A DNA stretch of 64,000 nucleotides, from NCBI RefSeq assembly GCF_025753795.1, contig NZ_JAOWPS010000005.1:372001-436000 (forward strand), given 5' to 3'. Under the pieces are notes generated by a model that ran no database searches, had not been told where the DNA came from, and worked only from the letters and a program-made list of their open reading frames with translations. Positions within the stretch are counted from its first letter, which is position 1. The number at the start of each line of letters is the position of its first letter. Below are positions 23,321 to 37,459 of the stretch, piece by piece. A program made the position numbers and the translations under genes. This DNA comes from Mesorhizobium sp. YC-39 (GTDB lineage: Bacteria; Pseudomonadota; Alphaproteobacteria; Rhizobiales; Rhizobiaceae).

Positions 23321-24274
23321 CACCAGCGATCCCTCGTAGACGAGACCGGGTTCGCGGTCCCTGGCCAAAAGCAGCGGACCGTCGAGATCGACGAAATCGG
23401 CATCCTGGGCCAGGAGTACGGCTGGCGCCATGGCAAGCGACGTGCCGACCATGCAGCCGACCATGACGCCGAAACCCAGTTCGCGGGCGCGGTCGCGAAG
23501 GACGAGGGCTGCCGTCAGCCCGCCCGCCTTGTCGAGCTTGATGTTGATGGCATCGTAAAGGCCGGCGAGCGAGGCGAGATCCTTCGCCTCATGCACGCTT
23601 TCATCAGCGCAGATCGGCACTGGATGCGCGATGTAGCCAAGGATGCCATCATGGCCCGCGGGAAGCGGCTGTTCGATCAGCGCGATGCCTTGCTCCGCGG
23701 CAAAGGCGAGGTTTTCCACGATGTTATCGTCCGTCCAGCCTTCATTGGCGTCGAGGATGATGCGGCTTTTCGGTGCCGCCGCGGTGACGGCGCGGATACG
23801 GGCGATGTCGTTGTCGCCGCCGATCTTGACCTTGAGCAGCGGCCGCATGGCGTTGGCGCGGGCCTGTGCGGCCATCGCCTCCGGCTCGCCCAGCGACAGC
23901 GTGTAAGCCGTCTCAAGCGCCCGCAACGGAACCGCGCCTATCGCATGCGCCACCGATGTTCCGCTGATCTTTGCTTCGAGGCCCCAGAGCGCGCAATCGA
24001 TGGCGTTGCGCGCGGCACCTGCCGGCATGGCGTCGAGCAAGGCACTGCGGGTGATGCCGCCTGCAATTTGTTCCCGCATGGCCTCGATCGCAGCGCGCAC
24101 GCCATCAACGGTTTCGCCATAGCGCCTGTAGGGAACGCATTCACCGCGCCCGACATGGCTGCCCTGGCTGATCGTGCAAATGATCACCTCGGCCTCGGTC
24201 TTCGAACCGCGCGAAATGGTGAAGGTGCCAGCTATGGGAAAGCGCTCGGCCTCGACCGAAATGACACGCGCCAT
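23291..24274 (-). CDS. L-Ala-D/L-Glu epimerase (enolase superfamily)
   Basis: A 327-residue enolase-superfamily enzyme of the dipeptide epimerase type, which recycles murein-derived L-Ala-D-Glu by epimerising it. Visible are the catalytic KxK (LKVKIGGDND), metal ligands in ILDANEGW, LIEQPLP and CADESVH, the second-side Lys in INIKLDKAGGL, and the substrate-loop DLDGPLLLARD. The ATG at 24274 has GGAG upstream; the open frame extends further upstream only by chance. It is divergent from the mla-type operon and convergent, with overlap, with the MFS gene. The epimerase call is by family resemblance. Confidence 0.87.
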   Translation of the reverse strand: MARVISVEAERFPIAGTFTISRGSKTEAEVIICTISQGSHVGRGECVPYRRYGETVDGVRAAIEAMREQIAGGITRSALLDAMPAGAARNAIDCALWGLEAKISGTSVAHAIGAVPLRALETAYTLSLGEPEAMAAQARANAMRPLLKVKIGGDNDIARIRAVTAAAPKSRIILDANEGWTDDNIVENLAFAAEQGIALIEQPLPAGHDGILGYIAHPVPICADESVHEAKDLASLAGLYDAINIKLDKAGGLTAALVLRDRARELGFGVMVGCMVGTSLAMAPAVLLAQDADFVDLDGPLLLARDREPGLVYEGSLVLPPDPTLWG

Positions 24275-24352
24275 ATTTTTCTGCTCCAGCTGTGCGACAA
24301 GGGGCTTGTCGGCAAATCGACAGGTCGACCCCGTCAGGCTAAACAGGACGCC

Positions 24353-25537
24353 ATGTTGACCACCCGCAAACGTTTCGCAAGCGGCACTCCCAGCGAAGCC
24401 GACCACCGGCCACGCGTTGAGGTTGGTGAAGAGGGCGGCGTTTTGCGCTGTGCTTTCGCTGGAAACTGGACGACGCGCACTGTGGCGCTGATCGATGCGG
24501 AGATGCGCAAGATCGAGAAACGCAGCGGTTTCCAATCAGTTACGCTCGATCTCTCCCATATTGAGAAGATGGATACCGCCGGCGCCTGGCTGATCGACCG
24601 CCTGGTCAGCGTCTTTGAGAAGAAGAGCATCGAGATCAGCTTGCAGGGGCAAAGCGAGATCGCCTCTATCCTGCTCGGCGCCGTCGGCGACGCCGTTCGT
24701 CGCGAGCCTGAGTCGGGCATTGCAAGACCGCCGAACATCGTCATCCGAGCGCTCGAGGCGGTTGGCCGTCGCGTTTACGAGATGCGCGACGATTTCCTGG
24801 CCTCGATGAACATTCTTGGCGCCACGATACAAGGCTCGCAGATGAAGCTTGGCCGCGGCCACGCGGTCAATCCGGCGGCGATCTTCAACCAGATCGATCG
24901 CATGGGCGTCGGCGCCATACCGGTGGTGGTGCTGATGTCGGCCATCGTCGGTGCGATCGTCGCCCAGCAAGGCGCCTACCAGCTCAGCTATTTCGGTGCC
25001 GACATCTTTGTCGTCGACCTGGTCGGCGTGCTGATCCTGCGTGAGCTCGGCGTGCTGATGACCGCGATCATGATCGCCGGCCGCTCGGGCAGCGCCATCA
25101 CCGCCGAGATCGGCTCGATGAAGATGCGCGAGGAGGTCGACGCGCTGAAGGTCATCGGGCTCAATCCGATCGGTGTACTGGTGTTTCCGCGGCTGGTTGC
25201 GCTGGTGATCGCTTTGCCTTGCCTGACCATCATCGCCAATTTCGCCGCACTTGGCGGCGGCATCCTGGCTGCATGGCTCTACTCCGACATTGCGCCGGCC
25301 GCCTTCATCGACCGGCTGCGCGTCGCCATCGATATCAGCACCATTTTTGCCGGCCTGATCAAGGCGCCGTTCATGGCCATGATCATCGGCACGATCGCCT
25401 CGGTCGAAGGCATGAAGGTCGGCGGCAGCGCCGAATCGCTCGGCCAGCACGTGACCGCTTCCGTGGTGAAATCGATCTTCGTGGTCATCATCCTCGACGG
25501 GCTTTTCGCCATGTTCTACGCGGCGATCGAGTTCTGA
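24353..25537 (+). CDS. mlaE: MlaE-family ABC permease with fused N-terminal STAS domain
   Basis: A 394-residue inner-membrane permease for lipid transport. Residues about 20-110 form a STAS domain (LDLSHIEKMDTAGAWLIDRL); in E. coli this is the separate protein MlaB. Residues about 140-394 are the MlaE permease with motifs AAIFNQIDRMGVGAIPVV, VLILRELGVLMTAIMIAGR, EIGSMKMREEVDALKVIGLNP and EGMKVGGSAESLG. The ATG at 24353 precedes the STAS domain by about 20 residues. It begins a tight operon with MlaF (one base between), MlaD and a lipoprotein, so it should form the membrane core of a phospholipid transporter. Confidence 0.92.
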   Translation: MLTTRKRFASGTPSEADHRPRVEVGEEGGVLRCAFAGNWTTRTVALIDAEMRKIEKRSGFQSVTLDLSHIEKMDTAGAWLIDRLVSVFEKKSIEISLQGQSEIASILLGAVGDAVRREPESGIARPPNIVIRALEAVGRRVYEMRDDFLASMNILGATIQGSQMKLGRGHAVNPAAIFNQIDRMGVGAIPVVVLMSAIVGAIVAQQGAYQLSYFGADIFVVDLVGVLILRELGVLMTAIMIAGRSGSAITAEIGSMKMREEVDALKVIGLNPIGVLVFPRLVALVIALPCLTIIANFAALGGGILAAWLYSDIAPAAFIDRLRVAIDISTIFAGLIKAPFMAMIIGTIASVEGMKVGGSAESLGQHVTASVVKSIFVVIILDGLFAMFYAAIEF

Positions 25538-25538
25538 C

Positions 25539-26360
25539 ATGGCAATGCAGGGCAGCACAGAGGCAACCGGGGTTGCGGAGGAAGCCAACGAAAACGAGAT
25601 CGTGCTTTCGGCGCACGACATCACCGTCTCCTTCGGTGACAAGGTCATTCTCGACAAATTGTCGCTCGATATCAGGCGCGGCGAGATCCTCGGCTTTGTC
25701 GGGGCTTCGGGCGCCGGCAAGTCGGTTTTGCTGCGTACCATCCTCGGCCTGACGCGCAAGCAATCGGGGACGATCAAGCTGTTCGGCGTGGATGTCGAAA
25801 AAGCGAGTGAACGGGAGCGTCTTCGCATCGACATGCGCCTTGGCGTCCTCTTCCAGCACGGCGCGCTGTTTTCGGCGCTTACGGTTCTCGAAAACGTCCA
25901 GGTGCCGATGCGCGAATATCTCGACTTGCCGCGAAAGCTGATGGACGAACTGGCGATGCTCAAGGTCGAACTGGTCGGGCTGCCGCCGGATGCGGCGCAG
26001 AAATTTCCTTCCGAACTGTCCGGCGGCATGATCAAGCGTGCGGCGCTGGCGCGCGCACTGGCACTCGACCCCGACATCGTCTTCCTCGACGAGCCGACAT
26101 CCGGCCTCGATCCGATCAGCGCGGCGGAGTTCGACGAACTGGTCGTCAAGCTGCGCGACACGATGGATCTGACCGTCTACATGGTCACGCACGATCTCGA
26201 CACGCTGTTCACGGCCTGCGATCGGGTGGCTGTGCTCGGCAAGAAGAAGGTGCTTGTCGAAGGCACGATCGACGACATGCTCAAAAGCGAGGAGCCGTGG
26301 GTGAAATCCTATTTCCGCGGAAAACGTGCCCGGCAACTTGATCTTGCGGCGCGTGCATAG
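25539..26360 (+). CDS. mlaF: MlaF-family ABC transporter ATP-binding protein
   Basis: A 273-residue ATPase that drives the MlaE permease. Walker A is VGASGAGKSVLL, the Q-loop GVLFQHGALFSALTVLENV is typical of MlaF, the signature is LSGGMIKRAALARAL, and Walker B FLDEPTSGLDP is followed by the H-loop VTHDLDT. An acidic N-terminal extension of about 20 residues precedes the ABC domain. It starts one base after the mlaE stop, so the pair is translationally linked. The C-terminal tail is basic (KSYFRGKRARQLD). Confidence 0.93.
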   Translation: MAMQGSTEATGVAEEANENEIVLSAHDITVSFGDKVILDKLSLDIRRGEILGFVGASGAGKSVLLRTILGLTRKQSGTIKLFGVDVEKASERERLRIDMRLGVLFQHGALFSALTVLENVQVPMREYLDLPRKLMDELAMLKVELVGLPPDAAQKFPSELSGGMIKRAALARALALDPDIVFLDEPTSGLDPISAAEFDELVVKLRDTMDLTVYMVTHDLDTLFTACDRVAVLGKKKVLVEGTIDDMLKSEEPWVKSYFRGKRARQLDLAARA

Positions 26361-26374
26361 CCATAAGTGAGGCA

Positions 26375-27748
26375 ATGGAAACCAGAGCCAACTACGTTAT
26401 TGTCGGCATTTTCACGCTGGCCGCGATCCTGGCGGCCTTCGCGTTCGTCTATTGGACGGCCGCGATCGGCGATAAGGGTGAGACGGTGCTGCTGCGTGTG
26501 CGCATCCCCGGCTCGGCATCCGGTCTCGGCCGCGGCAGTTTCGTGCTGTTTAACGGCGTCAAGGTCGGCGATGTCAGGCGCGTCTATATCGACGTTGACA
26601 ATCCGACCGCCGCTATCGCCGACACCGAGATAGACCGCTTGACGCCGATCACCAAATCGACGCAGGCCGATATCGGGCTTGCCGGCCTCACCGGCCAGGC
26701 CAATATCGAACTCAAGGGCGCCGACCCCAAGGAAGCGAAGCTTCTCGACCAGGCGGAAGCGGAGGGCAAGGTTGCCGAGATTGTCGCCAACCCGTCGGCG
26801 GTCACCAATCTCTTGCAGACGGCGCAGAACATCTTCACCCGCGCCGACACGGTTCTCACCCAGCTCGAGGGCTTCACCAAGGACGTTCGCGGGCCGCTGA
26901 CGCAGACCGTTAACAATGTGCAGACCTTCTCCGACGCGCTGGCCAAGAACTCCGACGGTATCGACAAGTTCCTCGCCAGCGTCAGTTCGCTGTCCGATGA
27001 ATTGAAGGGCGTTTCCGGCAAGCTCGACGGCACGCTTAAGGCGGCCGAAGGGCTGCTCAACGCCGTCGACAAGGACCAGATCAAGAGCATCGTCGCCAAT
27101 GTCGATACGGTGACCGGCAATCTGAAGGAAACCTCGAAGCAGTTCGACACCGTCATCAAGAATGTCGACACGGCGGTGGGATCGATCAACGACTTCGCCC
27201 AAAAGACGCAAGGGACGCTGACCAAGGTCGACGGCGTTCTCGATGGCATCGATCCGGCGCAGGTTCGCACCGCGCTGGCCAACATCCAGAAGGCGAGCGA
27301 GAATGCCAACAAGGCTGCCGCCGATATCGCCAAGGTGACCGACAAATTCGCCAACCGGGCCGACGATATCGATGAGACGATCAAGGATGCGCAGCAGCTT
27401 GCGCAGCGCCTCAACAATGCTTCGGTGCGCGTCGACGGCATCCTAGCCAAGGTCGATACATTGCTGGGCTCGGGCCAGGCGGATGGGGTGATGGCCGATG
27501 CCAGGGGCACACTGAAATCGTTCAAGCAGGTCGCCGACACGCTGAACGCCCGCCTCGGCACCATCACCGACAATCTGGCGCGATTCTCTGGCCAGGGCCT
27601 GCAAAACGTCGAGGCGCTGGTTCAGGACAGCCGCCGCTCGATCAACCGCATCGAAGAAGCGGTGACGGATCTCAGCCGCAATCCGCAACGGATACTTTCT
27701 GGGGGAGAAGGCGAGGTTCGACAGTTCGACGGCAGGGCGCGGCGTTGA
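26375..27748 (+). CDS. mlaD: MCE/MlaD-family lipid transport protein with long helical C-terminus
   Basis: A 457-residue protein anchored by one N-terminal transmembrane helix (residues 6-28) with a single MCE domain (VRIPGSASGLGRGSFVLFNGVKVGDV) that would form a periplasmic hexameric ring. After it come about 300 residues of amphipathic helix with recurring motifs such as VDTVTGNLKETSKQFDTV. E. coli MlaD is only 183 residues, so this resembles the long-tailed MCE proteins whose helices bridge the periplasm. It belongs to the mlaE-mlaF operon. No mlaC-like gene is present, consistent with the tail making the bridge itself; that is inference. Confidence 0.9.
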   Translation: METRANYVIVGIFTLAAILAAFAFVYWTAAIGDKGETVLLRVRIPGSASGLGRGSFVLFNGVKVGDVRRVYIDVDNPTAAIADTEIDRLTPITKSTQADIGLAGLTGQANIELKGADPKEAKLLDQAEAEGKVAEIVANPSAVTNLLQTAQNIFTRADTVLTQLEGFTKDVRGPLTQTVNNVQTFSDALAKNSDGIDKFLASVSSLSDELKGVSGKLDGTLKAAEGLLNAVDKDQIKSIVANVDTVTGNLKETSKQFDTVIKNVDTAVGSINDFAQKTQGTLTKVDGVLDGIDPAQVRTALANIQKASENANKAAADIAKVTDKFANRADDIDETIKDAQQLAQRLNNASVRVDGILAKVDTLLGSGQADGVMADARGTLKSFKQVADTLNARLGTITDNLARFSGQGLQNVEALVQDSRRSINRIEEAVTDLSRNPQRILSGGEGEVRQFDGRARR

Positions 27749-27827
27749 CTTCAGCCTTCCCACCCCCCAAGAACATGAACCACCATTGCAGGTTGATCTT
27801 ACGATCTGGGGACAACGGGGATCGCGT

Positions 27828-28439
27828 GTGAAGTCGGTTTGGGTCAAATCGGGCGGCGTCAGATCGACTGTGGCATTGCTTGCCCTGACCCTTGCCAGTT
27901 GCGCTGCCTTGCCGGGCGGCGGGCCGGCTCCGCTCGATACGTTCGAGCTTTCGGCGCCGTCGCTCGACGCGCGCAGTCACAGTCGCCGCCAGATACTCAT
28001 CGCCCAGCCGTCGGCCCTCAAGGCGCTGGACAGCCAGAACATCGTCATCAGGCCGTCCGATCGGTCGATCCAGTATCTCAAGGGCGCGCAATGGGCCGAC
28101 CGGCTGCCACTGATCGTGCAGGCGCGGCTGGCTGAGACGTTCCAGCGTTCGGGCAGCTTCGCCGGCGTCGGCAAGCCGGGCGAGGGGCTGGCGATCGACT
28201 ATCAGGTGATCGTCGAGGTTCGGTCTTTCGAAGTCCGGGTCGATGGTGGCGAACACGCCGAGGTCGATCTGTTCGTGCGGATACTGAACGACCGCAACGG
28301 CGAGGTGCGCGCCTCAAAGAGCTTTACCGCGACCGCGCCCGTCTCGGGCAGCGGCAACCAGGCCTATGTCGGCGCGCTCGACAATGCCTTCGGCGATGCG
28401 GCCAAGGACATTGTGCGCTGGACGGATTCGGTGATCTGA
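27828..28439 (+). CDS. ABC-type transport auxiliary lipoprotein (PqiC/LptE-like family)
   Basis: A 203-residue lipoprotein with a clear lipobox (LTLASC) after a hydrophobic leader, so it should be cut by signal peptidase II and lipid-anchored. The rest matches the auxiliary lipoprotein family found with MCE systems (PqiC type): SRRQILIAQPSALKALDSQNIVIRP, IQYLKGAQWADRLP and FAGVG. It probably anchors the MCE tunnel to the outer membrane. There is no ATG: the GTG at 27828 gives a complete signal peptide, while a TTG 42 bases upstream would add sequence unlike a leader. It is the last gene of the mla-type operon. Confidence 0.88.
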   Translation: MKSVWVKSGGVRSTVALLALTLASCAALPGGGPAPLDTFELSAPSLDARSHSRRQILIAQPSALKALDSQNIVIRPSDRSIQYLKGAQWADRLPLIVQARLAETFQRSGSFAGVGKPGEGLAIDYQVIVEVRSFEVRVDGGEHAEVDLFVRILNDRNGEVRASKSFTATAPVSGSGNQAYVGALDNAFGDAAKDIVRWTDSVI

Positions 28440-28935: not shown

Positions 28936-31900
28936 TCAATGCAGGCGGCCGCTGGCGTGGGCAAGCATGGTGTAGACCTTGCCGGTGTCCGACGTCAGGT
29001 AGGTCTGCGCCATGATGTTGTCGCGGTCGTTGCGCGACACATCCTTGAGCAGCTTCTCGAAATCGTCGCAGTAACGGTCGACGGCGGCACGGAATTCCGC
29101 CTCGGTCTGATATTTGCGGCGGATTTCGTCGAAAGTCTGCTGGCCCTTCAGCGTGTAGAGACGCCGCGTGAACACGTCGCGCTCGCCGCGCCGATAGCGG
29201 TTCCACAATTCGATCGAAGCATCGTGATCGATGGCGCGGGCGATATCGACGGAAAGCGAGTTGAGTGACTCCATGACATGAAGCGGCGAGCGCTGGGCAG
29301 GGGCCGGGCGCAGCGTTTCCACCGGAGCGGCGGGCCTGGCGTCCTCTTCGCGCGATGCCCCGGTCAGGAGATCGCGCACCCAGCCGCCCTGCGGCGTCCG
29401 GGCATTGGGATCGCGCTGACGCGCCGTCTCAACTGGGCGCTCCAGGTCGCGCAAGGCGGTCCCGCCCAACGGCACTTGCGGCGCACGATGCTCCGGCTGT
29501 GGCGCCGGCGATGGGGCCCGGCGTGGCGGCTCAGGCGCGCGCGCGGCAGGCGCTTGTGGCGCCGGACGCAGGCTGCGTGGCTCCGAGGGATCGGTGCCGC
29601 GGCCGGATTTCGCAACAATATCCGAGAGTTCCTTCAACGCGTTGATCTGCTCGGAAACAGCACGACGGATGGCCGTGGTCGATTCCTTTGCTTCTTCCGG
29701 CATCTCGATGACGCCCTTTTTGAGCTCGGCGCGAGTGAGGTCGAGCTCACTCTTGATCGAGCCGGCGGTGCGCCGCATCTCCTCGGTTGCGTCGGCGAAG
29801 CGCTTGGTTGCCGAATCAACGACCTCGGAAATGGCGGAACGGATCTTGTCGGCCGATTCCAGTGTCTTGCCTTCCGCGTTCTGCAGCGTCTGGCCGACCA
29901 GGTTCTCGAAGGAGCGCATCACCTTTTCCAGGTCTTCCGACTTCTTGACCAGGCCGACGGCGAGATCCTCCAGCGAGGACTGGCGCTCCAGCGTGTGTTC
30001 GAGGTTGCTTTGGGCCGAGCTCAACAGGTCCGAAGCGCTGGACAGCAGCCGGCTGTGCTCGTCGAACTTGGTGGCAATCGAGGCAACCTCGCGCAAGGTG
30101 GCGGACGACAGTTCGGTAAGCCGGGTCGTGTTCGAATCGACCAGGCGCGCCGAACTGGCGAAGGTCTGCGCGGCTTTCTCGGTCGTTGCGGCAAAGCTCT
30201 GCGTGCTGCCGGTCAGGCGTTCGTCGACCTGGCCGAGATTGGTCGCCGCCTGTTCGATCAACTGACCAAGCTGCGCACTGGATGTACTCATGCGGCCGAT
30301 AAGCTCGGCTACACTGTCGGCGAGCGTCGAGCGTGCCCCGTCGACGGCCGACAATGTTTCGGCCGTGCGACTGGCGAGCGCGTTGACGAGAGTGGCGTTT
30401 TCGCTACGCAGCTTCTCGGTGGCGCGCTCGGTGACTTCTTCCATGCTCCTTTGCAACTCCGAGCCACCCTGGGCGAAGCGCTCGACCAGTGGCCGTGCCG
30501 TTTCGTCGAGGATTTTCGATATCTCGGCCGACCGCGCCGCAAGCATGGTGTTGAGCTCGCGAGTGTTGGAGCCGATGGTCTTGGCCGCGTCGTTGGTGCT
30601 CTGGCCGATATGCTGGCCGACCGCGGTAAAAGTCTCGGCGATCGAGTTGGCGCGCGAAATGAGCTGCGCCTCGGCGGTCGAAACCTGCTCGTTGAGCCTC
30701 TGGCCCATCGTTTCGGTGGTGTAGGCGAGACGGTTCTCGACACCGGCAAGCTGCTCCTCGACGCGAGCCGCCGCAGCGGCCGCGCTTGACGCCAGGCGCT
30801 CGTCGGCGCCGGCGAGCGCCTGCTCGATTTCGCGGGCATGGACGGCGAGGTCCTGACCGGTCAGCCTTGCACGTTCGGCAACACGCTGCTCGGTGTTGGC
30901 GAAGGCCCCGACGATGTTGTCGGCATGCTCGCCAATCGTCGAGGTGCTGTCGGCGATGCGCGCCACCAGACGGTGATCCGCTTCGTCGAAGATGCGGCCG
31001 ATCTCGGATGCGCGCGCCGACAGTGCCTCCGAACCTTCGGCAATGCGCGATATCAACTTCTGGTCGGCGGCATCGAAGATGCGGCCAAGGTCCGACGCGC
31101 GTGCCGCAAGCGCTTCGGCCGACTCGCCGATGCGCACTGTCAGCCGTTCGTCGGCGCCTTCGAAATTGCGCAGGATATCGCCGGCGCGTGCGGCCAGCGA
31201 CTGCGCTGTTTCGACCGCGCGGGCAACCAGCTTCTGGTCCGCCGCATCGAATGTTCCGGCAATCTCGCCGGCACGGGCGGCCAGTTGATCGGCCGTTGCC
31301 TGGGCGCGTGCCAGCAGGGAGTTCGACGTGTCGTCGACACGCGCCATGAGTGTGCTCGATGTGTCCTCGGCGCGGGCAATGAGCGCGCTCGACGTGTCCT
31401 GCGCCCGCGCTGCGAGGCGGCGATCCGCCTCCTCGAAGGTGCGGGCGATATCCTCGGCCCTGGCAAGCAAGGCAGCCGAGGTCTGCTCGGCGCGTTCGGC
31501 GATCTTGCGGTCGGCATCGCTGAACGCCACACCCGCCTGCTCATGCAGCGCGCTGGTGACCTCCATGACCTTTTCGCGCAGTGCTCCCGCAACGAAGACA
31601 GCGCTTTTCTCGAGCACGGCGCGGACGTTGTCGACACCTGTCGACAGCGCGCGTTCCATGGTTCCGGCCCGCTCCTCGATGACGCCTGTCTGCCGGCTGA
31701 ACGCCTGCTCGATCTTTTCGATGTCCGCGGCAATGGCGTCCGAGATGTCGGTGCTTCGGGCGGCAATCTGGTCGATATGGCTGGATAGGGAACGATCGAC
31801 GTCCTTGCGCGTATCGGCAAGCTTGGAGAGATCGTCGTCCAAGGCGCGGGTCAGCATGTCGCGGCCTTCGGCGAGCTTGCCGACATGGCCGGTGATGATG

Positions 31901-34900
31901 TCGTCGACCTCACCACGGCTCGCTGCAAGCCTCTCCAGATCAGCTTCCAGCGCGCGCCTCAGTATGTCGCGGCCTTCGGCCAATTTCTCGACCTGGCCGG
32001 CGACCAGCCCGTCGATGCTTGAGCGGCTTTCGGCCAGTTTGGCGAGATCGTCCTCAAGCGCCTTCGACAGCGTCGAGCGATCCTGGAGGAGTTTCTCGGT
32101 ATGGTTGCCGACGAGGCTGTTGACGCCGCCGAGGTCGGCTTCCAGCGCACGCGCAAATTCCGCGCGGTTGTCGGTCAATTGCTTGGACTGGTCGGCGACG
32201 ACGCCCTTGATCGTGTTGAGATCGGCTTCCAGCGCGCGCCTGAGGATGTCGCGGCCCTCGGACAGCTTTTCGACCTGGCCGGCGACCAGCCCGTCGATGC
32301 TCGAACGGCTTTCCGCCAGCCTGGAAAGATCGTCTTCGAGCGCCTTCGACAAGGCCGAACGGTCCTCGATCAACTTCTCGGCGTGGCTGTTGACGAGATT
32401 GTTGACGCTGCCGAGATCGGCTTCCAGCGCGCGCTTGAGGATATCGCGGCCCTCGGCCAGCTTCTCGACCTGGCCGGCGACCAGCCCATCGATGCTCGAG
32501 CGGCTTTCGGCCAGTTTAGCGAGATCGTCTTCGAGCGCCTTCGAAAGGGTAGAGCGGTCCTGGGCGAGCCTGTTCATGTGGTCGGAGATAAGGCCGTTGA
32601 CGCTCTGCAGGTCGGCTTCCAGCGCTCGTGAAAGCTGACTGCGGTCTTCCGCCAGCCTTTCGGACTGGCCAGCGATAACACCCTTGATCGTGTTCAGGTC
32701 GGTTTCCAGCGCGCGCTTGAGGATATCGCGGCCTTCGGCCAACTTCTCGACCTGGCCGGCGACCAGCCCATCGATGCTCGAGCGGCTTTCCGCCAGCTTG
32801 GCGAGGTCGGCCTCGAGTGTTTGCGACAGCAGGCTGCGATCCTCGCTGAGCCTGTCCGAATGACTCTCGATCAGGCCCCTGATGCCGGACAGGTCATCGT
32901 CGAGCGAACGCGACAGCCCGGCGCGGTCTTCCGCCAGTTTCGCGGAATGGCTCTCGATCAGGCCCTGGATGCCGACAATATCGGTTTCCAGTGCCTTGGC
33001 GAGAACGGCGCGACCTTCGGCGATCTTTTCAACCTGGGCGGCGACCAACCCGTCGATGCCGGCGCGGTTGTCGGCCAGCTTGGCGAGGTCGGCGTCCAGC
33101 GCCCGCGAAAGAATGCCGCGACCCTCGGCGAGCTTTCCGACATGGCCGGCAACCATTTCATCAATGATTGTGCGGGCTTGCACGAGTTTTCCGGAGTCTT
33201 CATCGAGGGCCTGCGCTAGCCTGCTGCGGCCTTCTTCTAGTCTTTCGAGATGGCTGCCGAGCGAAGCGTCGATGGCGGCGCGCGACTCGTTGACCTTGCG
33301 CAGATCCTCTTCGAGAGCGCGCGCGATCAAGCTGCGGCCGTCGGCAAGTTTCTGCACCTGATCGGTCACGGCTGCATCGATGCCGGCACGGCTTTCGGCG
33401 AACTTCGCCAGATCGGCCTCCATTGCCGCCGCCATGCGTTCTCGGCTTTCCGACAGCTTGCGGCTGTGGTTTTCGACGGCTTCCTCGATACCGACGCGGG
33501 CGTCGGCAAGTCGCTGGATATCGCTGTCGAAGGAACGGGAAACGACGTGGCGCGCCGCTTCCATGCGCCCGGCGAAGTCGCTGGCGCGTGCTTCAAGCAT
33601 GGACGAGGTCGACGAAACGATGTCGGCCATGTCGGCGCCGATCTGGGTCTTGCCCTGATCGATCATGGCCGACAGCGTGTCCTTGCTTTCCTGGAAAGTA
33701 TGGGCGATTTCGCGTGCGCGCTCGACCAGTGTCTCGTTGATCTGGCGGGCTCGAGCCTCCAGCGCGGCGTTGAGCTTCTGCGTGCCGGTGTCCAGCGCTT
33801 CGGCGCGGGTCTGGAATTCGCCGATCAGCGCCTGCCCGCGTTCGGCAAGCGTGCGCTCGATGCCGCTGAGGCTGGCTTCGAATTCGGAACTCAGCGTGCG
33901 CGCCGCACCCCCGAGCAGCGACACCATGCCGTTGGTCCGATCGTCGAGCAGTTCGGTCAGCGACCGTGTCAGGCCGTCGGTCGTGTCCGTCAGCTTGGCG
34001 ATGCGCGTATCGAGAAGGCTGGCGAAGGCTTCGCCGGAGGTCGACAGCCGGTCGGTGATCGTATCGAGGCGTCCTTCCACCTGATCGAAGATCGACATCG
34101 AGCTTCCGTTGATCCTGTCGATCAGCGTATCGCCGGAATTGGTGATGGTCATCGACAGCTGGGTCGAAGCGTTGAGGATGCTGTCGCGGATGAGGTCGCT
34201 GGCGGAGCCGATTTCATCCTTCAGCGTCTCATGCGCGCCGGCGATCGATGCACGCACGCGCTCGGCGTGGGTGACCACGGCTTCGCGCTCGCTGCCCAGC
34301 CCGTCGACGAGCGAGCGGATGCGGGATTCGTTTTCAGAATAGGAGCGTTCGATCTGGTTCACTTCGCTGTGGACAAGGGTTTCGAGCTCGACGGCGCGCG
34401 CCAGCGTGCGCTCGATGCCTTCGCCCATGGCAGCCACCTCGCGGCGAACGGCCTGACCGATCATCATGACACGATCCTGGGCAAGGCTTTCCGGCTCGGC
34501 CAGGCGGAAGGCCACTTCCGTCATCGACTGGGCGGCGATGCGCATTTCCTGGGCGCGGCGGATCATGGCGGCAAACGCCCAGAACAGGATAACGGGCAGG
34601 ATTGCCGCGACTGCGAGGCCGATCAGTTCGGGACGGGCCAAAAACTGGTCAAGCGTACGGATTTTCCAGATGTCGGGTCCGAACAACAGATTGGCCAAAG
34701 CTCCAGCGCCGGCAAGCCAGGCGAGCGAAACGATCGCCACAACCCAATAGATCGTGTTGGAGGCGCGCCGATTGAGGCTGTGCAGCAGCGTCTTGTAATC
34801 TTTTTGACGATCGTCGTTGGCCGGTGCGAAACCGGTAGGCTGCGAGCCATTGCGCGTTTCCACCGGGCGCAACTCGGCCGGCTTGGCCTTTGCCGCTGAC

Positions 34901-35184
34901 TTCGCGCTCTGGCTCTGGTTGGCGGCGGGCGCCGCGTTTTGACTTTGGTTTACCACAGGCGCTGGCGTCTCGCTTTGGCTGACGACAGGCTCCGCATCCT
35001 GGTTGCGGCCTTCGCGCGCCAGCTCGTCCGCAGCCTGCGATATCTGCGCTTCGAGATCTTCCATCGACACCGCAATGTCGAGGTCGCCGCCGGCGTCCCC
35101 ACTCAGGTCGATATCAAGCGCTTTTTCGAGTTCCTTGGCTACGTCGCTGTCGAGCGTTCTTGTCGTCGATGTTTTCTTCGCCAT
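28936..35184 (-). CDS. gpr: Giant coiled-coil membrane protein, growth pole ring (GPR/RgsE) type
   Basis: A 2,082-residue protein. The size, membrane anchor and apolipoprotein-like helices match Agrobacterium GPR (growth pole ring protein) and Sinorhizobium RgsE, which organise polar cell growth. Residues 1-140 are soluble and acidic, 144-168 and 187-207 are transmembrane, and 210 to about 1,850 are almost all helical. Within that, residues about 550-1,149 are eighteen tandem modules of 36 or 29 residues (ALEDDL...AEGRDIL pattern), and about 1,235-1,470 hold further 29-residue repeats (AARAGEI...). A Pro-rich linker leads to a conserved C-terminal domain (WNRYRRGERDVFTRRLYT). It is divergent from the Hpt gene. 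The call rests on size, architecture and C-terminus from memory of the family; DNA repeats inside it are near-identical. Confidence 0.85.
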   Translation of the reverse strand: MAKKTSTTRTLDSDVAKELEKALDIDLSGDAGGDLDIAVSMEDLEAQISQAADELAREGRNQDAEPVVSQSETPAPVVNQSQNAAPAANQSQSAKSAAKAKPAELRPVETRNGSQPTGFAPANDDRQKDYKTLLHSLNRRASNTIYWVVAIVSLAWLAGAGALANLLFGPDIWKIRTLDQFLARPELIGLAVAAILPVILFWAFAAMIRRAQEMRIAAQSMTEVAFRLAEPESLAQDRVMMIGQAVRREVAAMGEGIERTLARAVELETLVHSEVNQIERSYSENESRIRSLVDGLGSEREAVVTHAERVRASIAGAHETLKDEIGSASDLIRDSILNASTQLSMTITNSGDTLIDRINGSSMSIFDQVEGRLDTITDRLSTSGEAFASLLDTRIAKLTDTTDGLTRSLTELLDDRTNGMVSLLGGAARTLSSEFEASLSGIERTLAERGQALIGEFQTRAEALDTGTQKLNAALEARARQINETLVERAREIAHTFQESKDTLSAMIDQGKTQIGADMADIVSSTSSMLEARASDFAGRMEAARHVVSRSFDSDIQRLADARVGIEEAVENHSRKLSESRERMAAAMEADLAKFAESRAGIDAAVTDQVQKLADGRSLIARALEEDLRKVNESRAAIDASLGSHLERLEEGRSRLAQALDEDSGKLVQARTIIDEMVAGHVGKLAEGRGILSRALDADLAKLADNRAGIDGLVAAQVEKIAEGRAVLAKALETDIVGIQGLIESHSAKLAEDRAGLSRSLDDDLSGIRGLIESHSDRLSEDRSLLSQTLEADLAKLAESRSSIDGLVAGQVEKLAEGRDILKRALETDLNTIKGVIAGQSERLAEDRSQLSRALEADLQSVNGLISDHMNRLAQDRSTLSKALEDDLAKLAESRSSIDGLVAGQVEKLAEGRDILKRALEADLGSVNNLVNSHAEKLIEDRSALSKALEDDLSRLAESRSSIDGLVAGQVEKLSEGRDILRRALEADLNTIKGVVADQSKQLTDNRAEFARALEADLGGVNSLVGNHTEKLLQDRSTLSKALEDDLAKLAESRSSIDGLVAGQVEKLAEGRDILRRALEADLERLAASRGEVDDIITGHVGKLAEGRDMLTRALDDDLSKLADTRKDVDRSLSSHIDQIAARSTDISDAIAADIEKIEQAFSRQTGVIEERAGTMERALSTGVDNVRAVLEKSAVFVAGALREKVMEVTSALHEQAGVAFSDADRKIAERAEQTSAALLARAEDIARTFEEADRRLAARAQDTSSALIARAEDTSSTLMARVDDTSNSLLARAQATADQLAARAGEIAGTFDAADQKLVARAVETAQSLAARAGDILRNFEGADERLTVRIGESAEALAARASDLGRIFDAADQKLISRIAEGSEALSARASEIGRIFDEADHRLVARIADSTSTIGEHADNIVGAFANTEQRVAERARLTGQDLAVHAREIEQALAGADERLASSAAAAAARVEEQLAGVENRLAYTTETMGQRLNEQVSTAEAQLISRANSIAETFTAVGQHIGQSTNDAAKTIGSNTRELNTMLAARSAEISKILDETARPLVERFAQGGSELQRSMEEVTERATEKLRSENATLVNALASRTAETLSAVDGARSTLADSVAELIGRMSTSSAQLGQLIEQAATNLGQVDERLTGSTQSFAATTEKAAQTFASSARLVDSNTTRLTELSSATLREVASIATKFDEHSRLLSSASDLLSSAQSNLEHTLERQSSLEDLAVGLVKKSEDLEKVMRSFENLVGQTLQNAEGKTLESADKIRSAISEVVDSATKRFADATEEMRRTAGSIKSELDLTRAELKKGVIEMPEEAKESTTAIRRAVSEQINALKELSDIVAKSGRGTDPSEPRSLRPAPQAPAARAPEPPRRAPSPAPQPEHRAPQVPLGGTALRDLERPVETARQRDPNARTPQGGWVRDLLTGASREEDARPAAPVETLRPAPAQRSPLHVMESLNSLSVDIARAIDHDASIELWNRYRRGERDVFTRRLYTLKGQQTFDEIRRKYQTEAEFRAAVDRYCDDFEKLLKDVSRNDRDNIMAQTYLTSDTGKVYTMLAHASGRLH
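31737..33535 (-). repeat. Tandem repeat array encoding 36/29-residue helical modules
   Basis: Inside the growth-pole gene, eighteen consecutive modules start with ALEADL-like and end with AEGRDIL- or EDRSxLS-like residues. In protein order the lengths are 36,36,36,36,36,29,29,36,29,29,36,29,36,29,29,36,36,36. The two lengths differ by exactly one heptad (AKLAESR present or absent). DNA copies, such as the gacctggccggcgaccag block, recur near 31990, 32275, 32470 and 32750 and are nearly identical, so recombination between copies is plausible. Confidence 0.8.

Positions 35185-36349: not shown

Positions 36350-37459
<1,110 letters not shown>

Follow-up and report, generated by a model that had tools for sequence, protein, structure and literature searches.

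Variable length and mostly conserved helix phase in the 36/29-residue module array of a GPR/RgsE-type giant protein of Mesorhizobium

We identified in Mesorhizobium sp. YC-39 a giant protein with a long array of 36- and 29-residue modules, in which helix phase is mostly kept while the length of the array varies between species. We think it probable that this array is a nearly untwisted coiled-coil scaffold, phase-kept and of evolvable length, rather than a fixed ruler. The gene lies in the window (the whole 64,000-nucleotide stretch of DNA that we analysed) as a single open frame of 2,082 amino acids on the reverse strand, at 28936-35184, where the initial annotation had correctly placed it. 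Its assignment there to the GPR/RgsE family is supported by the architecture, and we regard the protein as the Mesorhizobium counterpart of this polar-growth scaffold: compared by the descriptions in the available portions of the published accounts, GPR of Agrobacterium (2,115 aa) and RgsE of Sinorhizobium (2,089 aa) are alike in size and share with it the N-terminal hydrophobic pair, a long helical region with PF01442 matches, and a proline-rich part ahead of the C-terminal end (PMC8262873, PMC7327166).

All parts of the protein are on the reverse strand. Two hydrophobic stretches, presumably membrane-spanning, can be read directly near the N-terminus (residues ~143-209; 34558-34758); they are followed by a first helix-like part (residues 220-540; 33565-34527) with an 11/22-residue periodicity (autocorrelation lags 22 and 11) and a hydrophobic period of 3.640 (power 11.1; shuffled maximum 10.3). 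After the module array and a second repeat block come a last helix-like part (residues 1500-1850; 29635-30687), also with a hydrophobic period of 3.640, a proline-rich linker evident from the sequence (residues ~1862-1965; 29290-29601), and a highly conserved, widespread C-terminal domain (residues ~1966-2082; 28939-29289), with a mean column identity of 87% over residues 1960-2082 in 29 sequences. Matches to this domain occur in 80 of the 81 genomes of the family and in 142 of the 150 of the order; 2 of these 150 have two matches, and the other matching genomes one. In searches with the domain no family or fold came up convincingly: Foldseek gave nothing at E 0.001 or better, the best matches among PDB sequences and in Pfam had E values of 0.094 and 0.092, respectively, and the structure model of the domain has a pLDDT of 67.5. 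A search of the window for tRNAs found none, and between 28000 and 37000 no match to Rfam reached the gathering threshold.

Convergent with the gene is a forward-strand group at 23591-28439, annotated with Pfam as an MlaE permease, an ABC ATPase, an MlaD/MCE protein and an ABC auxiliary lipoprotein, in mpcEFDA gene order. Such an mpc-type operon is convergent with the GPR gene in 52 of the 74 family genomes having both; for genomes of other families the count is 15 of 34. On the other side of GPR lies a reductase gene (36365-37459), used as a control and detected at E 1e-60 in 32 of the 81 genomes; of the 31 that also have GPR, 25 carry it no more than 20 kb from that gene (hand count). Among 59 named loci with full flanks, operon genes occur in 53-54, the reductase in 50, and the transporter beyond the reductase in 37. 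The conserved mpc-type gene order is thus weakened as evidence of function, since the reductase, in genomes that have it, is equally near. The lengths of GPR and of MlaD/MpcD looked linked in the raw data (Pearson 0.51, n = 70; a single MlaD row was taken from each of 75 of the 76 matching genomes, G010 being left out at E 3.7e-4), but the link was dropped because it did not hold in independent contrasts (r 0.16, p 0.13, 67 contrasts).

A site-matrix scan, with a scoring matrix built from the window protein's own sites and without spacing preference, reproduced exactly the eighteen modules first proposed, in the order 36x5, 29x2, 36, 29x2, 36, 29, 36, 29x2, 36x3; 50 shuffles of the array region gave a mean of 0.12 sites and a maximum of 1. 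The array, defined by module spacing and hydrophobic period, covers 599 residues (535-1133; 31786-33582): ten near-constant modules, 36x5, 29x2, 36, 29x2 (residues 535-866; 32587-33582), a variable middle reading 36, 29, 36, 29, 29 (residues 867-1025; 32110-32586), and three final 36-modules placed by their spacing (residues 1026-1133; 31786-32109). Autocorrelation over residues 540-1160 peaks at lags 94, 36, 65, 29, and 18, and the DNA repeats with periods of 282 and 195 bp, which correspond to 94 and 65 amino acids. The module of 36 is not the elementary unit that it had been taken for: Arg-anchored sites stand 18 apart inside each 36-module, giving 36 = 18+18 and 29 = 18+11, and 28 of the 29 sites of the 18-units in this array have the core-facing Arg. 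Nor is the second block (residues 1224-1488; 30721-31515) built of 29 only; its eight 29-type anchors are spaced 29, 62, 29, 29, 29, 29, 29, where 62 is 29 plus three additional 11-residue units (residues 1261-1293; 31306-31404), seen in the spacing and in a 33-bp tandem repeat in the DNA at 31323-31400. A like code is read in NZ_CP015318 (L157) and NC_014923 (L175), both titled complete, so it is not an artefact of the assembly of this genome.

For comparison among relatives, we analysed 150 proteins: those of the 149 complete loci among 160 with the C-terminal domain, and the window protein. The Mesorhizobium group comprises the window protein and the complete loci L140-L193, including records titled "Rhizobiales bacterium" (L161) and "Bacterium" (L174); spacing and length counts add L134, of the same genus. 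One short copy of 1,148 aa (L179) was left out of the indel, DNA-repeat, length, and second-block analyses and of the Mesorhizobium group in the anchor-Arg count, and was kept in the spacing count and the count of autocorrelation lags. Six exact duplicate pairs among the 150 were removed for the indel pairs and kept in the lag, spacing, DNA-repeat, and anchor-Arg counts; all but one were kept in the length-CV and first-ten-module analyses.

Of 943 in-array spacings in 50 Mesorhizobium-type proteins, 914 measure 29 or 36 residues, and the remaining 29 measure 18, 58, or 72. The first ten modules have identical spacing in 46 of 49 such proteins, and the middle of the array varies among species in the number and order of modules. 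Arrays have 17-27 modules (13.5 in L190, a metagenome assembly), and their length ranges from 451 to 881 residues (CV 0.111, 49 proteins), or from 563 to 881 (CV 0.104) without L190. Over 77 family proteins, lag 29 is among the top five autocorrelation lags for 43 and lag 36 for 13, and the code of some relatives consists of 36 alone or of 36 and 40. Homologues without 36/29 periodicity, named at the outset as what would speak against the code, do exist and count against it in part: the modules are kept in Mesorhizobium-type proteins but were found in none of the 40 homologues that belong to the order's other families, which have lags of 22 and 11 instead, and the 36/29 code is therefore a local dialect.

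The hydrophobic period of the array is 3.610 (power 20.8; shuffled maximum 10.6). The early suggestion that both module lengths keep the same helix face aligned is supported: 36/10 gives 3.60 and 29/8 gives 3.625 residues per turn, and a straight helix has 3.63 (PMC4786415). Core positions of the 36-module (4, 7, 11, 14, 18, 22, 25, 29, 32, and 36) follow the 3-4-3-4-4 spacing by which an 18/5 coiled coil is recognized, with Arg rather than a hydrophobic residue at positions 11 and 29. Among sites that have a further site after them, 899 of 904 carry the anchor Arg, a column masked in the search; at last (present in 1 of 96) or isolated (47 of 136) sites of the same matrix it is mostly absent. 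Such a core Arg would weaken a plain hydrophobic core, and counts against the coiled-coil proposal. An AlphaFold2 model of residues 680-915 is a single helix over residues 2-235 of 236 (mean pLDDT 88.4; single chain, pTM 0.32), and dN/dS across the same residues is 0.06-0.15 against five other Mesorhizobium (the comparison used seven chosen relatives). These residues are under purifying selection; the model and the selection test covered 236 of the 599 array residues.

Indels were compared in 42 disjoint homologue pairs (84 of 143 proteins, each used once, with k-mer similarity of at least 0.2; 59 were left out). Within the helical region, 73 of 90 long indels (81%) lie within 40 degrees of whole turns, with a best period of 3.615 (R 0.84; the jittered null, scanned over 3.5-3.7, reached at most 0.33), and short indels are scarce (4 of 94). 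In the flanks that look disordered short indels prevail, with 95 of 109 about the proline-rich linker, where they are mostly of 1-6 residues, and 62 of 77 in the other flank. Other gap penalties gave 76/94 and 78/103 in phase, and 6/100 and 16/119 short. We consider it unlikely, though more credible than the other alternatives below, that the quantized lengths are a by-product of recombination between repeats, with phase itself unselected. DNA repeats in these genes alone offer 49-67% in-phase lengths, and much of the phase bias is therefore mutational supply; those of at least 12 nt by themselves yield 64%, with lengths of 94, 36, and 29 residues foremost. The excess over this 64% is clear in Mesorhizobium pairs (23 of 24 long indels in phase, p 0.0003), and in the remaining pairs it is modest (50 of 66, p 0.03). 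Against a mere by-product stand the in-phase fractions observed overall and in Mesorhizobium pairs, the rarity of short indels in the rod, and the low dN/dS of residues 680-915.

Apolipoprotein-like amphipathic helices lying on or carrying lipid, as proposed for Agrobacterium GPR (PMC8262873), are a less likely explanation still. PF01442 matches eight stretches of the protein (E 6.7e-24), and parts outside the array have 11/22-residue periods; the score of 85.1 bits, however, is below the curated cut-off of 90, nothing in the own genome is over that cut-off, and sub-cut-off matches in 7 of 14 control genomes mean that this may be generic helix similarity. The strongest hydrophobic positions of the array fall in an arc of about 80 degrees that also contains Arg (weaker positions are at 160 and 340 degrees), and the net charge of -33 over 618 residues is poor for binding an acidic membrane. 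The gene does adjoin an MCE lipid-transport operon, but the reductase control weakens this nearness as evidence, and we rated the lipid reading lower for that reason. The molecular ruler of the initial annotation, with module number setting ring diameter, is unsupported and very improbable: the like first ten modules and a whole-protein length CV of 0.042 inside the genus, as low as the 0.03-0.04 given for synaptonemal-complex proteins in the available part of PMC8598163, speak for it, but array length varies within the genus as described above, and protein length has a CV of 0.209 over 76 family-level genomes (1,206-3,002 aa) and 0.282 over 40 genomes of other families.

In the coiled-coil scaffold that we favor, the central array would form a continuous helix with core steps of 7+11 residues, or 18 residues in five turns, such that 36 residues would make ten turns and 29 would make eight. 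The helices may pair or bundle into a nearly untwisted coiled coil with one face aligned for roughly 90 nm. At the growing pole this could let the chains pack laterally with one another or along the membrane, and the rod would keep the membrane-anchored N-terminus away from the conserved C-terminal domain. Repeat recombination would add and remove modules, changes that rotate the downstream helix would tend to be purged, and selection would thereby hold the register of the helix more than a set length. We also suggest, tentatively and with a good deal more doubt, that rod length is free and phase selected, that genera use phase-equivalent letters (36 only, 36/29, 36/40, and 22/11), and that the choice of 36 or 29 places core Arg layers 18 or 29 apart, so that chains would have to match register for a growth-pole scaffold. 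If true, this would explain the behavior of A-IV-1cc, a 20-21-residue deletion in the GPR of Agrobacterium, which, in the available text of PMC8262873, is harmful when mixed with wild type and largely works alone. The self-similarity of the array weakens the idea of a barcode with a single register: of the 29 Arg-type sites, 21 coincide at a shift of 18 residues, 16 at 36, and 12 at 94. A charge-stagger calculation (shifts of 36 and 94 repulsive, 0-6 attractive) was given no weight, as it mixes in within-helix contacts.

GPR is a very large scaffold of the growth zone that bacteria growing at one tip must build. If phase and not length is selected, the rod could tolerate shortening at chosen sites, structural work and clean deletion tests would become feasible, and the published 20-21-residue deletions would need rereading as phase changes. 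To our knowledge, no GPR structure has been solved.

The GPR/RgsE family is already known, and the 36/29 code is apparently undescribed, as we found no description of it in the searchable literature. Myosin and tropomyosin rods are, like the array, long helices in which a higher-order repeat is superimposed on the basic core repeat; they differ from it in being heptad-based, with repeats of 28 or about 40 residues. RgsE has been described as a repeat-containing protein that has homology to coiled coils and as many as ten apolipoprotein domains (PMC7327166), and the available portions of that paper and of PMC8262873 contain no description that we could find of 36/29, 18-, or 11-residue modules. 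With the 18/5 and 11/3 coiled coils treated in PMC4786415 the array shares 18 residues in five turns and 11 in three, and it differs from them in mixing 36 and 29 in one array whose module number changes between species. As in the coiled-coil proteins of the synaptonemal complex, indels are depleted in the coiled coil relative to the regions outside it; in those proteins, according to the part of the study available (PMC8598163), length is conserved across species, whereas here the length of the array varies and its phase is mostly kept.

The GPR/RgsE-type gene at 28936-35184 (reverse strand) encodes a protein of 2,082 aa, in which residues 535-1133 are built of modules of 36 and 29 residues. 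A matrix derived from sites in the window itself and free of any spacing preference reproduced exactly the module order proposed for this protein in the initial annotation. Anchors inside the array are 18 residues apart (36 = 18+18, 29 = 18+11), and the core positions of the 36-module (4, 7, 11, 14, 18, 22, 25, 29, 32, and 36) follow repeated 3-4-3-4-4 spacings. Arginine is found at positions 11 and 29 in 11/11 36-modules and at position 11 in 7/7 29-modules; across the whole window array, 28 of the 29 expected sites have it. With the arginine column masked, sites followed by another site carry arginine in 899 of 904 cases in 48 Mesorhizobium-type proteins (the window protein and complete relatives among loci L140-L193, in some counts also L134) and in 509 of 526 cases in 101 other proteins; most last or isolated sites lack it (present in 1/96 and 47/136, respectively). 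Given the 18-spaced anchors and these arginine counts, the 29-module reads as a 36-module minus one heptad that contains one arginine layer.

AlphaFold modeling of an array segment, a check put forward with that annotation, gave a single unbroken helix through both module lengths (residues 680-915, AlphaFold2, mean pLDDT 88.4). Both lengths are indeed near whole helix turns, as had been claimed: 36 residues make 10 turns at 3.60 residues per turn and 29 make 8 at 3.625, either side of the array mean of about 3.61. A straight helix has 3.63 residues per turn, and stutters are known to give a period of 18/5 (PMC4786415); a bundle of such array helices would have very little twist. The array region has a net charge of -33 over 618 residues, and its strongest hydrophobic positions occupy an arc of about 80 degrees, features that would suit pairing more than a position on an acidic membrane surface.

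The initial annotation also saw in the array a molecular ruler for a ring or scaffold; the ruler is not supported by the array's varying length. In 49 Mesorhizobium-type proteins the array has 451-881 residues (563-881 when the metagenome assembly L190 is left out), and whole proteins are 1,206-3,002 aa long in 76 family genomes. We compared 42 disjoint nearest pairs, taking as in phase any indel whose length falls no more than 40 degrees from a whole number of turns (3.6 residues per turn). The helical region has 94 indels, 4 short (1-6 residues) and 90 longer, and short indels make up 95/109 and 62/77 in its flanks. Among the longer ones 73/90 are in phase, against 5/18 residue classes (28%) by chance; the best period is 3.615, with R 0.84 where 500 jittered null sets reach at most 0.33. 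Mesorhizobium pairs alone give 23/24, and the other pairs 50/66, another seven being multiples of 11. DNA repeats in these genes (minimum length set at 9-15 nt) would supply 49-67% in-phase lengths on their own, and mutational supply therefore accounts for much of the pattern. The in-phase excess over 64% has p 0.0003 in Mesorhizobium pairs and p 0.03 in the others. Phase is kept more than length.

In 50 Mesorhizobium-type proteins, the 943 in-array spacings below 100 residues are 29 (363), 36 (551), 18 (27), 58 (1), and 72 (1), and another 46, of 408-495 residues, end at an isolated downstream site; the spacing of the first ten modules is identical in 46 of 49 proteins. The rest of the family (99 rows, including five repeats) has at least five modules in 29 rows and 514/519 spacings in phase. 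One locus (L061) has nearly all modules of 36, and two (L073 and L132) use 36 and 40 in place of 36 and 29, the 40 keeping helix phase to within 40 degrees. A lag analysis independent of the window-derived matrix placed 29 in the top five lags of 43/77 family proteins, 36 in 13/77, 11 in 66/77, and 22 in 57/77. Comparison of homologues bears out the 36/29 pattern in Mesorhizobium-type proteins and not in 40 proteins of the order that belong to other families, where the window-built matrix, which distant modules could escape, found modules in 0/40; their top lags are 22 (39/40) and 11 (33/40), with 36 in 2/40, and their median helical period is 3.66.

For residues 680-915, dN/dS between the window and five other Mesorhizobium is 0.06-0.15, with a sixth (L192) 0.20, and with L202 (Oryzicola) 0.31. 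Within the gene, most module copies have diverged widely at silent sites; in the 22 closest same-length pairs dS is 0.18-1.25. The array is old and maintained, and 282-bp DNA repeats together with the codes of different species suggest occasional duplication of 29+29+36 blocks (94 aa).

The protein has a disordered-looking N-terminus, two hydrophobic stretches (residues about 143-209), helix-like periodicity over about 1,640 residues, a proline-rich linker (29290-29601, reverse strand), and a very conserved C-terminal domain. PF01442 matches eight stretches with 85.1 bits (Pfam), under the cut-off of 90. The closest named relatives are from Mesorhizobium species, and Agrobacterium GPR (PMC8262873) and Sinorhizobium RgsE (PMC7327166) are described with similar architecture and size. 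We use the GPR/RgsE name because of this architecture and the widespread C-terminal domain, present in 80/81 family and 142/150 order genomes. The last 123 residues (28939-29307, reverse strand) have 87% mean column identity in 29 sequences and no convincing match in Pfam, PDB sequences, or by fold. Several assemblies (loci L187, L188, L189, L191, L205, L216, and L217; family genomes G008, G049, G067, and G080) start 100-270 bp upstream of this domain; perhaps, at a guess, the linker is hard to assemble. In another family genome (G056, 2.6 Mb, 310 contigs), the MCE gene and reductase are present and the C-terminal domain has no match.

Convergent with the GPR gene is an operon matching MlaE, ABC ATPase, MlaD, and auxiliary lipoprotein (23591-28439, forward strand), in the order of Brucella mpcEFDA (PMC12436622). 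The arrangement recurs in 52 of the 74 family genomes having both, and in 15 of the 34 other-family genomes with a match (40 examined). A control neighbor, the reductase beyond GPR, occurs in fewer genomes, yet is equally close where present (25/31, hand count), which tempers this evidence: the gene order may simply be old, and does not prove a functional tie. The main text of PMC12436622 does not mention RgsE. The MlaD/MpcD neighbor (26375-27748, forward strand) varies greatly in length (open frames of 323-1095 aa in the family), as noted before (PMC12436622).

The GPR/RgsE family is already known, and RgsE has been termed repeat-containing (PMC7327166); we met no description of the 36/29 code in titles, abstract openings, and some main text on GPR/RgsE (repeats, coiled coils, lipid transport) or coiled-coil periodicity and indels, which is not proof of absence. 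Two deletions in Agrobacterium GPR, each taking 20 residues (21 according to the abstract) out of a predicted coiled coil, are harmful when mixed with wild type; alone, the A-IV-1cc deletion largely complements, and the other forms foci in cells that are still abnormal (PMC8262873). By calculation, deleting 20 residues rotates the helix by ~160 degrees, 21 by ~60, 22 by ~40, and 18, 29, or 36 by 0-20. Indels of 20 or 21 residues are absent from the 94 natural helical-region indels, and a larger set of 219, which overlaps with these, has one of each length. These observations suggest but do not prove that a change of helix phase causes the harm; a mismatch in length would explain it as well. 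An alpha-helix rises 0.15 nm per residue. A 1,700-residue helix would thus measure about 255 nm, versus the 600 nm given for the extended 1,700-residue helical domain of GPR (PMC8262873), which alters the argument on how far this domain must fold.
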